DNA of 64,000 bases from Moorella sp. Hama-1 (lineage in GTDB: Bacteria > Bacillota > DSM-521 > Neomoorellales > Neomoorellaceae): contig NZ_AP024620.1 in NCBI RefSeq assembly GCF_023734095.1, forward strand, positions 2,662,501-2,726,500, read 5' to 3'. The translations under genes and the position numbers were made by a program. Shown here one piece after another: positions 44,210-49,695 of this stretch (within the stretch, counting starts at the first letter, position 1; each line of letters opens with the position of its first letter). Below the pieces are notes generated by a model, which saw nothing but the letters and a program-made list of their open reading frames with translations, was not told the DNA's origin and did not search any database.

Positions 44210-44965
44210 TTAGCGAAGGGCGATGACCACCAAGGCCGCAGTAAGGAACAAACAACCGGCGATTACCCCCAGGTCCAGGGTCCGAAAGGTTGAAGTCCGC
44301 AACGACGTGCGGGGGCCGGCGCCGAAGCCGCGGGTTTCCATGGAGATGGCCATGGTCCGCGCCCGCTGGACGGACATGAGGAGGAGAGGCAGGGCCAGGG
44401 GGACGATGGCCCGCAAGCGTCGGAAGATATTGCGGCTTTCCAGGTCGCAGGCCCGCGCCCGCTGGGCCTGGATGATCAGGCCCAATTCCTCCTGCAGGGT
44501 GGGAATAAAACGCAGGGAAGTAACCAGCATCAGGGCATAGACGTAGGGCACCCGCAGTTTCTCGACGAAGGCCACGATCATATCCTTGGGCGGGGTGGTG
44601 GCCAGGAGAACAGGGATGGTGGAGGTCATGGCCAGCATCCTTAAAGCCAGCATGGTGCAGGCCGTCAGCCCCACGTCGGTGACCCGGCCGAAACCGGACC
44701 CCGGGAGCAGGGTGAAGACCGTGTTGCCTTCCTGGATCAAAAAGATCTGGAAAAGGATGAAGATGGCGGCAAAGATAAGCAGCCCCCGGATGGCCGGCAG
44801 GATCTCTTTTAAGACCTTCCCGGCCAGGGCGACGGCCAGGACGGAGGCCCAGAGGCCCAGGAGGGGCAGGGGTTGCTGGAAGACAAAGGCCACGGTAATG
44901 ACGGCCAGGGACCAGGCGATCTTGGTGAGGGGATTGAGTTCATGCAGGAAGGACCTGGCGGGCAT
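44210..44965 (-). CDS. ecfT: Energy-coupling factor transmembrane protein EcfT
   Basis: 251 residues, CbiQ/EcfT family: five to six membrane helices and the coupling-helix motifs QRARACDLE and SMETRGFG (Ala-Arg-Ala/Gly type) that dock onto the two ATPases. It overlaps the ATPase gene by 26 bases and closes the S-A-A-T operon. Confidence 0.9.
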   Translation of the reverse strand: MPARSFLHELNPLTKIAWSLAVITVAFVFQQPLPLLGLWASVLAVALAGKVLKEILPAIRGLLIFAAIFILFQIFLIQEGNTVFTLLPGSGFGRVTDVGLTACTMLALRMLAMTSTIPVLLATTPPKDMIVAFVEKLRVPYVYALMLVTSLRFIPTLQEELGLIIQAQRARACDLESRNIFRRLRAIVPLALPLLLMSVQRARTMAISMETRGFGAGPRTSLRTSTFRTLDLGVIAGCLFLTAALVVIALR

Positions 44966-45785
44966 CCTTCTCCCCCCTTAAAGCAGTAATAATGGCTTCA
45001 TACAATTCTTCCACCGTCAATACTCCCGGTAAAAGCCCCGCTTCCCAGTAGGGCCGGGCCAACTGGACGGCCTGGGGCGGCAGCAAGCCGGTGGCCGCCA
45101 GGATATCCTCCCGAGCGAAAACAGTTGCCAGGGGGCCGTCCAGGAGCAACTCCCCCGCGCCCAGGACCAGGGCGCGGTCGGCGAAGCGGGCCACCATCTC
45201 CATGTCATGAGTGACGCAAAGTACAGTGTGTCCCTGGCGGTGTAACTTTTGGACAATGGTCATAATCTCCAGGGCTTCGCGGTAGTCCTGGCCAGTGGTG
45301 GGTTCGTCCAGGATCAGAACTTCCGGCTCCATGGCCAGGATGGAGGCCAGGGCCACCCGCTGGCGCTGGCCTTTGCTGAGTTGCCGGGGGTTAACCTCCA
45401 GGTAAGGGGTAAGACCGACGGCGGCGGCCGCCTCTGCCACCCTCTCTTCCAGGGCCTGGCCCTTGAGGCCCAGGTTTTTGGGGCCGAAGGCCAGCTCCTC
45501 CCGGACGGTGGGGAGGAAGAGCTGGTGGTCCGGGTTCTGGAAGAGGAAACCGACCCGGCGGGCCAGTTCTACCGCCCGCACCCGGGCGGTATCCAGGCCG
45601 CCGACCAGGAGGCGGCCGGCGGTGGGTTTAAGAAGGCCACCCAGGAGTTTCAGCAGGGTAGTCTTGCCGGCGCCGTTCTCGCCGATGAGGGCCACAAATT
45701 CACCGGCTTTGATATGAAAATCAAGACCCTGCAGGGCCCGGAACCCATTAGGGTAGGTAAACTCAATCGCTTCGGCCCGGATCAT
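44940..45785 (-). CDS. Energy-coupling factor ATPase (EcfA1-like)
   Basis: 281 residues. Walker A GENGAGKTT, Q-loop FQNPDHQLF, signature LSKGQRQRVALAS, Walker B VLILDEPTTGQD and H-loop VTHDMEM are all present. The Q-loop pattern DHQLF is typical of ECF ATPases. It drives the S component encoded at 46809-47363 with its partner ATPase. Confidence 0.92.
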   Translation of the reverse strand: MIRAEAIEFTYPNGFRALQGLDFHIKAGEFVALIGENGAGKTTLLKLLGGLLKPTAGRLLVGGLDTARVRAVELARRVGFLFQNPDHQLFLPTVREELAFGPKNLGLKGQALEERVAEAAAAVGLTPYLEVNPRQLSKGQRQRVALASILAMEPEVLILDEPTTGQDYREALEIMTIVQKLHRQGHTVLCVTHDMEMVARFADRALVLGAGELLLDGPLATVFAREDILAATGLLPPQAVQLARPYWEAGLLPGVLTVEELYEAIITALRGEKDARQVLPA

Positions 45786-45907: not shown

Positions 45908-46780
45908 CTACGGGGACTCATAGCTCAGTAAACGGTCCAGTTCCCGCCGGCCCTGGTCTACCTCCAGGGGCAAGTCGCCGTGGTAGACCCCGGCCCGGCA
46001 CAGCAACCGGAAGATGGTCGTCACCGGCGGTACTTCCAGGCCCAGTTCGGCGACCAATTTTTCCTGGCCCAGGACCTGGCGTGGGGCGGCGTCGGCCACG
46101 ATGCGGCCTTGATAGAGACAGACCAGCCGGGGTACCCGGGGCGCCAGGAGGCTAATCTTCTGCTCAATCAGCAGGATGGTCATACCGTAGTCGCGGTTAA
46201 GTCGCTCCAGGAGGTTTACGATCTCCAGGCTCCCCCGGGGATCGAGTTCGGAAGTCGGTTCATCCAGGACCAGGATGCGGGGCCGCAGGGCTATGGCAGC
46301 AGCGATGGCCACCTTCTGTTTCTGGCCGCCGGAGAGCTGCCGCAGGGGGCGGTGGCGTAGATCGGTGATGCCCACCATCTCCAGGGCCGCGCTAATACGC
46401 GCCCGCATCTCTTCCCGGGGAACGGCCAGGTTTTCCAGGCCGAAGGCCAACTCATCCTCCACGGTTTCGGCTACCAGCTGCGCTTCCGGGTCCTGGAAGA
46501 CGCTGCCGATAACCCCGGCCAGCCGGGCACAGGGGGTGGCGGCCGTATCCAGGCCGGCGATGGTCACCCTGCCGGCCAGGCGGCCACCCTGGAAATGGGG
46601 AATGATGCCGTTCAACGCCAGGGCCAGGGTGGTCTTACCGGCCCCGGTGGGGCCGGTAAGACCCAGAAACTCCCCCGGACGCACCGTCAGGTTGATCCCC
46701 GCCAGGGCTGGCACCTGGCTATCGGGGTAATAAAAGGTATAGTCTTCGACTTTGATAATGGGCTCGAATGTAGGATCCAT
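45908..46780 (-). CDS. Energy-coupling factor ATPase (EcfA2-like)
   Basis: 290 residues. Walker A GPTGAGKTT, Q-loop FQDPEAQLV, signature LSGGQKQKVAIAA, Walker B ILVLDEPTSELD, H-loop LIEQ (Gln in place of His, as in some EcfA subunits) are seen. It lies 28 bases after the S component and 122 bases before the second ATPase. Confidence 0.92.
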   Translation of the reverse strand: MDPTFEPIIKVEDYTFYYPDSQVPALAGINLTVRPGEFLGLTGPTGAGKTTLALALNGIIPHFQGGRLAGRVTIAGLDTAATPCARLAGVIGSVFQDPEAQLVAETVEDELAFGLENLAVPREEMRARISAALEMVGITDLRHRPLRQLSGGQKQKVAIAAAIALRPRILVLDEPTSELDPRGSLEIVNLLERLNRDYGMTILLIEQKISLLAPRVPRLVCLYQGRIVADAAPRQVLGQEKLVAELGLEVPPVTTIFRLLCRAGVYHGDLPLEVDQGRRELDRLLSYESP

Positions 46781-46808: not shown

Positions 46809-47363
46809 CTACATATTCTTGAGTAACTGTTTCAAGGGGAAGTAGAGGACCTGAGCCAGGATGGCGTTAAAGGTCCCGGTGACAATAACTACCAGCAACA
46901 GGTAGGTGTAGGCCGGGTTTTTCGGCAGAGTGGCGAAAAGGGTGACGGCTTTAAAGATAGTAATATAGGTAAAGCCGCTGGCGAAGGTGCCCAGGAAGGT
47001 AACGACGAAGGGTTTAATCGTTTTTAGCAAGCCGTTTTTATCGAAGGGCAGGTAAAGTAAAAGTGCGGTAACAATGGCTCCCACAGGTTCACTGGCAAAA
47101 TTCAGGTAGGGCAACAGGGATTTGGTGGTTAACTGGCAGACAGCGGCGGCCACCAGGCCGATGCCCAGCACCTGGGGCAGGCGGGGTTTCAGGAGCATAA
47201 TGGCCAGGACGTACATGCCGATGACCACGTTGGGGGTAATGCCGAAAAAGGGCGGGACAACCAGGCGCAACACCGCCCCTGCCGCCAGCAGGACGGCTAC
47301 CACAACTACGTCCACCGCCTGCAGGCCCTGTTTCTCCACCCGGGTCAGTTTGACTTCTTCCAT
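46809..47363 (-). CDS. ECF transporter S component, TrpP-like (probable tryptophan uptake)
   Basis: 184 residues, about six membrane helices, with GAVLRLVVPPFFGITPNVVI and AAAVCQLTTKSLLPYLN, resembling the TrpP family. ATG follows AGGAGG. The tight S-A2-A1-T order shows a dedicated ECF transporter. Specificity for tryptophan is supported independently by the TRAP-like triplet array and terminator in its leader (47430-47575). Confidence 0.75.
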   Translation of the reverse strand: MEEVKLTRVEKQGLQAVDVVVVAVLLAAGAVLRLVVPPFFGITPNVVIGMYVLAIMLLKPRLPQVLGIGLVAAAVCQLTTKSLLPYLNFASEPVGAIVTALLLYLPFDKNGLLKTIKPFVVTFLGTFASGFTYITIFKAVTLFATLPKNPAYTYLLLVVIVTGTFNAILAQVLYFPLKQLLKNM

Positions 47364-47429
47364 GACAGCTTCCTCCTTAATGATGAATTATTGCTGCCGG
47401 CAGCCAAGCCCCTCGCCGGCTATAAATAC

Positions 47430-47575
47430 AAAAACAGCCCGACGAAAACCGCCAGGCTGTTATTGCCTATACTCCGGCCAGTCTCGTCTCTCCTCAGCTA
47501 TTAACCATGCTCAACTCAACTCAACTTTATTTAATTGTTGCCACCCTGGCAACCATGTATTGCCTTTGCCGGGTT
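47430..47575 (-). promoter_or_regulatory. Candidate TRAP-type attenuator leader
   Basis: On the minus strand, in order: a 5' stem-loop (GTTGCCA/TGGCAAC, 47537-47553); nine (G/U)AG triplets in 5-nt register in three groups (starting on the + map at 47520, 47515, 47510; 47498, 47493, 47488, 47483; 47472, 47467); then a terminator whose AACAGCC/GGCTGTT arms (47433-47461) are followed by a T-run. This order, with 2-nt spacers, matches Bacillus trp leaders bound by tryptophan-activated TRAP. GCCAGG in the 5' hairpin could also pair with CCTGGC in the terminator as an antiterminator. Confidence 0.6.
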
Positions 47576-47581
47576 AACCTT

Positions 47582-47610
47582 AGCATACCAGGGGAGCCCA
47601 TACCTGTCAA
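47582..47610 (-). promoter_or_regulatory. Promoter of the TrpP-like operon
   Basis: On the minus strand TTGACA (complement of 47605-47610), 17 bases, TATGCT (complement of 47582-47587), placing the start near 47575. The -35 lies at the edge of a MerR gene fragment, so the promoter may have been completed by that insertion or deletion. Confidence 0.7.
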
Positions 47611-49213: not shown

Positions 49214-49614
49214 ACCCTGGAAACAATGGTTGCTACGGGCCAAGAGTAATCTCACTCGGGCCAAATTGGGTAAACAGGCGGATGATATTATCTCTGCTTT
49301 GATGCCCAGCAGGCTGCCGAGAAAGCCCTGAAGGCACTATTACTGTACCTGCATCTCGACTGTCCCCGCACCCATTCTATCGGCCAACTTTTAAGTTTGC
49401 TTGAAAGTTCTCGGAAGGTCGCTGTACCGGAGGAGATTAAAGAGGCTGCGATTTTAACCGATTATGCTGTTACCACCCGGTACCCTGGAGATTGGGATGC
49501 AATCGATTTAGAGGAGTATCAACAAGCCCTGAAATATGCAGAAAAAATCTGGGAGTGGGTAGCAGGGGAAATGGTCCGAACAGCCAGTGGCGGTGTGCCG
49601 GTGCCGATCGAGTA
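49204..49614 (+). pseudogene. HEPN-domain toxin, frameshifted
   Basis: ATG at 49204 overlaps the MNT gene and encodes EPWKQWLLRAKSNLTRAKLG. A single-base shift near 49288 moves the rest (FDAQQAAEKALKALLLYLHL, PRTHSIGQLLSLL, ALKYAEKIWEWV) to the other frame. The HEPN ribonuclease motif region (PRTHS) is kept. The last few codons run into a group II intron tail, so the native C terminus is also replaced. Confidence 0.75.
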
Positions 49615-49695
49615 GGAGGGGGCGGCTAGCCCCCGTCCTCTCACACCACCGGACATGCGGGTCCGCATCCGGCGGTTCAGCGCCCCTGCCGGGCG
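49607..49695 (-). mobile_element. 3' end (domains V-VI) of a group II intron
   Basis: The minus strand shows GCCGGATGCGGACCCGCATG then TCCGGTGGTGTGAGAGG, the catalytic domain V pattern of bacterial group II introns, and a GGGGGCTAGCCGCCCCC hairpin with TCCTACTCGAT, the domain VI and 3' end. The reverse-transcriptase ORF and the 5' domains are absent. It abuts the HEPN gene at about 49607. Confidence 0.6.

Follow-up and report, generated by a model that had tools for sequence, protein, structure and literature searches.

Which substrate does an uncharacterised ECF transporter of Moorella sp. Hama-1 import, and how does the leader in front of its genes set that import? In the window (the whole 64,000-nucleotide stretch analysed here, to which all coordinates refer unless a contig is named), every leader element lies on the minus strand, 5′ of a trpP-family S component gene and of EcfA-EcfA'-EcfT, and we read this leader, with a probability of roughly 0.9, as a TRAP-controlled transcription attenuator of a trpP-ecfA-ecfA'-ecfT tryptophan-import operon. 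The computed basis for this reading comprises the promoter, the triplets, the terminator, the contact residues of the mtrB product, the conservation of the triplets, their association with mtrB, and the conservation of both hairpins.

Transporter operon

The following genes make up the operon:

46809 to 47363, minus strand: trpP, encoding the 184-aa S component (PF17099 at 35.1 bits, cut-off 27.2)
45908 to 46780, minus strand: EcfA-type ATPase 1 (PF00005; best NCBIfam TIGR04520, below its equivalog cut-off)
44940 to 45785, minus strand: EcfA-type ATPase 2 (PF00005; best NCBIfam TIGR04521, below its equivalog cut-off)
44210 to 44965, minus strand: EcfT, CbiQ family (PF02361)

The ECF set is thus complete, as the preliminary description of this DNA had proposed, with a TrpP-family S component, two EcfA-type ATPases and EcfT. 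The same gene order (trpP-ecfA-ecfA'-ecfT) is found in L161-L165 and L160, and TrpP itself is 90–99% identical to the TrpP of named Moorella species. M. thermoacetica DSM 21394 (L152, L154; also L026, L014) encodes two trpP-ecfAA'T operons, both with TRAP-type leaders, in one of which a distal GAG is GAA. A trpP-ecfAA'T operon with a TrpP of 64% identity also occurs in L158, a MAG labelled uncultured Geobacter, where we found neither a TRAP array at the operon nor mtrB in the genome; horizontal transfer or a binning error possibly accounts for it.

Leader anatomy

Upstream of trpP, the leader contains, from its promoter to the ribosome-binding site:

47605 to 47610, minus strand: −35 hexamer TTGACA (from sequence), its position kept in genus orthologues
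47582 to 47587, minus strand: −10 hexamer TATGCT (from sequence), with a 17-bp spacer and a TG ahead of it
47537 to 47553, minus strand: 5′ stem-loop GTTGCCA-GGG-TGGCAAC (from folding, −9.5 kcal/mol)
47467 to 47522, minus strand: predicted TRAP site of nine (G/U)AG triplets, grouped 3+4+2, in 5-nt steps inside the groups
47433 to 47461, minus strand: intrinsic terminator hairpin and U-run, 12–13 bp, −19.2 kcal/mol (from folding and sequence)
47371 to 47378, minus strand: Shine-Dalgarno AAGGAGGA of trpP (from sequence), free of TRAP triplets

Transcription is expected to start near 47575 on the minus strand. The promoter had been put forward as a consensus one, which holds for the −35 hexamer and the 17-bp spacing but not for the imperfect −10 hexamer, giving 10/12 matches overall. 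Similarly, the 5′ stem-loop is present here and is shared with copy C13 of M. thermoacetica DSM 21394 (L026/L152), but most orthologues in the genus lack it or have a different one, and it was rejected as a conserved part of the leader. In B. subtilis-type trp leaders this stem-loop is an accessory, and it does not define TRAP attenuators; of the Bacillus trp-leader arrangement first ascribed to the locus, the trp-operon layout stands, without the stem-loop as a conserved part.

The triplets start, on the minus strand, at 47522, 47517, 47512, 47500, 47495, 47490, 47485, 47474 and 47469, and therefore begin 159 to 106 nt upstream of the trpP start codon. Their array scores 10.85, a value that 20,000 dinucleotide shuffles never attained; among the 89 ORF upstream regions in the window, the second-best reaches 3.75, about a third of the score of the trpP leader. 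Seven or more repeats are described as giving stable binding of RNA by TRAP (PMC4027176), a threshold to be set against nine triplets here and a range of 6 to 15 among relatives. Several orthologues have AAG at the position of the ninth triplet. The terminator is located between the array and trpP, the first gene. Compared with its own shuffles the leader folds more stably (z −4.06), and the terminator cells are 97.7% paired across the leader alignment, well above slid controls. Both the three-group array and the terminator behind it, reading from 47461 to 47433, are as originally described. An Rfam search of the trpP leader gave no match, including to the T-box (RF00230). Elsewhere in the window, a group II intron domain (RF00029, 45.1 bits) was detected at 49607-49677 on the minus strand.

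TRAP protein

A search for mtrB had been proposed as a check on the leader, and the closed 3.32 Mb genome encodes one such gene (137.1 bits). Within the genus, 10 of 11 genomes contain mtrB, the single miss being a genome that is 58% complete. The product aligns without gaps to Bacillus TRAP of known structure, and the two proteins do not differ at the residues expected to contact tryptophan and RNA; we take the former to be those of the TRGxDT and AQFTEHTS region, and the latter to be Lys37, Lys56 and Arg58 (B. subtilis numbering). A search of the genome for anti-TRAP (PF15777) returned just a sub-cut-off match within a 384-aa frame, and hence no evidence of anti-TRAP.

Conservation of the leader and association with mtrB

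Evolutionarily, the layout recurs in Moorella orthologues, in another genus of the same family (G016) and in another family (G055), where the leader carries ten triplets with eight 5-nt steps. In an alignment of eleven leaders, the early triplet groups are almost invariant and the spacer letters between them variable; in the distal array nearly every letter is invariant, including the non-triplet letters ACTGGCCGG. Conservation of the triplets in relatives had also been proposed as a check, and they are kept together with the terminator in the orthologues. Since mtrB is present and the triplets are conserved along with the terminator, neither of the two outcomes that the preliminary description had named as speaking against it (a genome without mtrB, or a terminator conserved without its triplets) was observed.

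On a broader scale, we searched 398 genomes of the phylum with an alignment of ECF-type TrpP, which yielded 33 carriers at E ≤ 1e-20, scored their leaders for triplets and looked up mtrB in the non-Moorella carriers; five more leaders were added later, and in the genome counts Moorella is counted once and two extra loci from further contigs are included. Each of the 20 genomes that have both mtrB and an ECF-type TrpP, from 11 families, carries triplets ahead of the latter, in most cases with an intrinsic terminator after the array; the exceptions are G065, whose triplets are confined to the Shine-Dalgarno and the start, and G322, which has no clear terminator. Among the genomes without detected mtrB, 8 of 9 have no triplet array, and in three of these eight its place is taken by a T-box, which in two cases scores under the Rfam gathering threshold. 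The ninth, a MAG (L160), has a clear array with no mtrB found in its genome, perhaps through incompleteness of the MAG. The association between triplets and mtrB is significant by genome (Fisher p = 2e-6) and by family (p = 1e-3), the latter being the fairer number because genomes within one family are not independent.

These comparisons bear on the possibility that the triplets arose by chance in a purine-rich stretch and that control is by a T-box, a riboswitch, a leader peptide, or by none of these. T-boxes do stand ahead of some TrpP homologues where the genome lacks mtrB, but the leader studied here matches nothing in Rfam, no shuffle attained its array score, and the triplets are kept across families and co-occur with mtrB, which together make this alternative highly improbable. 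The T-boxes are also informative about the substrate: in five aligned TrpP T-boxes the specifier, its position read by eye, is UGG, the tryptophan codon, in 5/5. Because such T-boxes precede homologues in TRAP-less genomes, tryptophan is the predicted substrate of the transporter, an assignment supported indirectly by these specifiers and by the predicted TRAP control.

TRAP might, on the other hand, act on this gene chiefly at translation, by blocking ribosome access, with the terminator being incidental. This is how B. subtilis TRAP represses trpP (yhaG), by blocking ribosome binding, according to Sarsero 2000 and Yakhnin 2004 as cited in PMC4347634, and it would suit the position of the triplets in G065 and in some relatives (L188, L189, L190 and L195) in which, besides the attenuator array, additional (G/U)AG triplets lie close to the Shine-Dalgarno immediately upstream of trpP. 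In the Moorella leader, however, the triplets are distant from the start codon, the Shine-Dalgarno has none, and the terminator, which separates the array from the gene, is conserved along with the array. We therefore consider control chiefly at translation improbable and retain transcription attenuation for Moorella; for the genera of L188, L189, L190 and L195, the extra triplets suggest dual control of transcription and translation.

Predicted antiterminator and proposed mechanism

Attenuation of the trp type calls for a second hairpin, the predicted arms of which are:

47474 to 47488, minus strand: predicted antiterminator 5′ arm GACGAGACTGGCCGG, which coincides in part with the distal triplets and has nearly invariant letters
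47441 to 47455, minus strand: predicted antiterminator 3′ arm CTGGCGGTTTTCGTC, holding most of the terminator 5′ arm and its loop

This antiterminator, overlapping both the distal triplets and the terminator, is pairable in 99.2% of cells, well above slid controls, and the invariance of the distal array, ACTGGCCGG included, is what would be expected if that part doubles as an antiterminator arm. As a statistically proven element of a single sequence it is not supported, the duplex in the trpP leader taken alone having p = 0.225, and over 21 leaders, several of them from one genus, the mean z is a modest −1.03. No two-sided covariation was seen among the aligned leaders, so that the support for the antiterminator is one of conservation, not compensation. 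Thermodynamically, the terminator (−19.2 kcal/mol) is more stable than the antiterminator (−14.2 kcal/mol as drawn, −16.7 kcal/mol for the best fold of the segment), and antitermination must therefore be kinetic, with the antiterminator forming first.

From these elements we infer that TRAP binds the leader and does so in a tryptophan-dependent way, in which order the hairpins fold during transcription, and what the transporter carries. With tryptophan scarce, the nascent leader would fold into the antiterminator, GACGAGACUGGCCGG pairing with CUGGCGGUUUUCGUC, which would occupy the distal triplets and most of the terminator 5′ arm and let RNA polymerase read through into the operon, allowing import. 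With tryptophan plentiful, Trp-loaded TRAP would wrap eight or nine triplets and block the antiterminator, whereupon the terminator would fold and transcription would end before trpP, without import.

A TRAP-bound leader could also bring about termination directly, with no competing antiterminator involved, given that B. subtilis TRAP is able to cause termination in a way that does not depend on the trp attenuator RNA (PMC3913778), and that the antiterminator is statistically weak in the single sequence. An antiterminator arm, however, explains why ACTGGCCGG is nearly invariant in Moorella when the proximal spacers vary; we thus regard direct termination as unlikely, and favor competition between antiterminator and terminator.

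Comparison with known systems

The closest parallel is the B. subtilis trpEDCFBA leader, for which the antiterminator/terminator layout of the trp attenuator has been described (PMC4027176). Like the Moorella trpP leader, it has a promoter, repeats overlapping an antiterminator, which in Moorella is a predicted one, an overlapping terminator and TRAP in the genome; the Moorella leader differs in having nine triplets in three groups, not eleven, in the lack of a 5′ stem-loop conserved in the genus, and in controlling a transporter operon. With the B. subtilis trpP (yhaG) site the Moorella locus has the gene family in common and very likely the regulator too, but in Moorella the array is placed well ahead of the gene and is followed by a terminator, and trpP is the first gene of an operon that includes an EcfA-EcfA'-EcfT set of its own. 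Because B. subtilis TRAP controls trpP at translation, the mode of control differs, and Moorella very likely applies the trp-operon mode of TRAP control to a transporter. The Trp-specifier T-box leaders serve the same transporter family and are likewise governed by tryptophan supply; they sense uncharged tRNA-Trp, require no protein and are found in genomes without detected mtrB. In the open-access literature, we found no report of TRAP in Moorella, of transporter attenuation by TRAP or of TRAP control of iorA, and an earlier published description of a TRAP-attenuated trpP may exist.

A candidate TRAP regulon in Moorella

Scanning the genome for four triplets in 5-nt steps gave six hits, and candidate leaders were then read. 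A second leader of the same kind is located between the chorismate mutase gene and trpE (L059/L139, G000:C1, about 1611700, minus strand); it has a promoter of its own, nine triplets and a terminator. An array is likewise combined with a terminator in the pabB leader (L148/L168, G000:C1, upstream of 2767537; shuffle p at most 0.023), ahead of a trpE paralogue that resembles pabB and has a pabC-like gene behind it, and in the iorA leader (L094/L166, G000:C1, upstream of 1088961-1090718, minus strand; shuffle p at most 0.009), ahead of iorA-iorB-paaK, which encode an indolepyruvate:ferredoxin oxidoreductase and a phenylacetate-CoA ligase-like protein. Array and terminator precede trpE, the pabB-like gene and iorA in most Moorella genomes, and the iorA version is also found in another family (G023), so that these similar leaders suggest a wider TRAP regulon in the genus. 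In one Moorella genome, an insertion of about 5 kb seemingly splits iorA (G009:C1:2412723-2417684).

A further site (L058, G000:C1:1609488-1609505, minus strand), internal to the trp operon, consists of four triplets in 5-nt steps that overlap the start region of trpD; it is kept in 9 of 11 genus genomes, and is doubtful as a site because four triplets fall below the seven for stable binding. Two of the six hits were set aside as chance occurrences, one within a CRISPR spacer (L056) and the other within a terminator-like hairpin before an unrelated regulator (L060).

Taken at face value, the Moorella TRAP regulon would span at least four attenuators (trpE, trpP-ecfAA'T, pabB-pabC and iorA-iorB-paaK), with repression of iorA marking an oxidoreductase that works in the biosynthetic direction, a reading toward which we lean. 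Repression of the oxidoreductase by tryptophan, provided that the iorA leader does what its layout suggests, fits a biosynthetic role; if so, the oxidoreductase and the arylacetate-CoA ligase would rebuild tryptophan from indoleacetate instead of serving amino-acid breakdown. Together, the iorA and pabB leaders open to direct test the question of the direction in which the indolepyruvate oxidoreductase works.

Biological significance

For Moorella, the attenuator reading would give an uncharacterised ECF transporter both a predicted substrate and a mode of control. More broadly, transcription attenuation by TRAP, familiar from the trp operons of Bacillus, would extend to transporter operons in many families of anaerobes, and a single transporter family appears to alternate between TRAP and T-box control, depending on whether the genome encodes mtrB.
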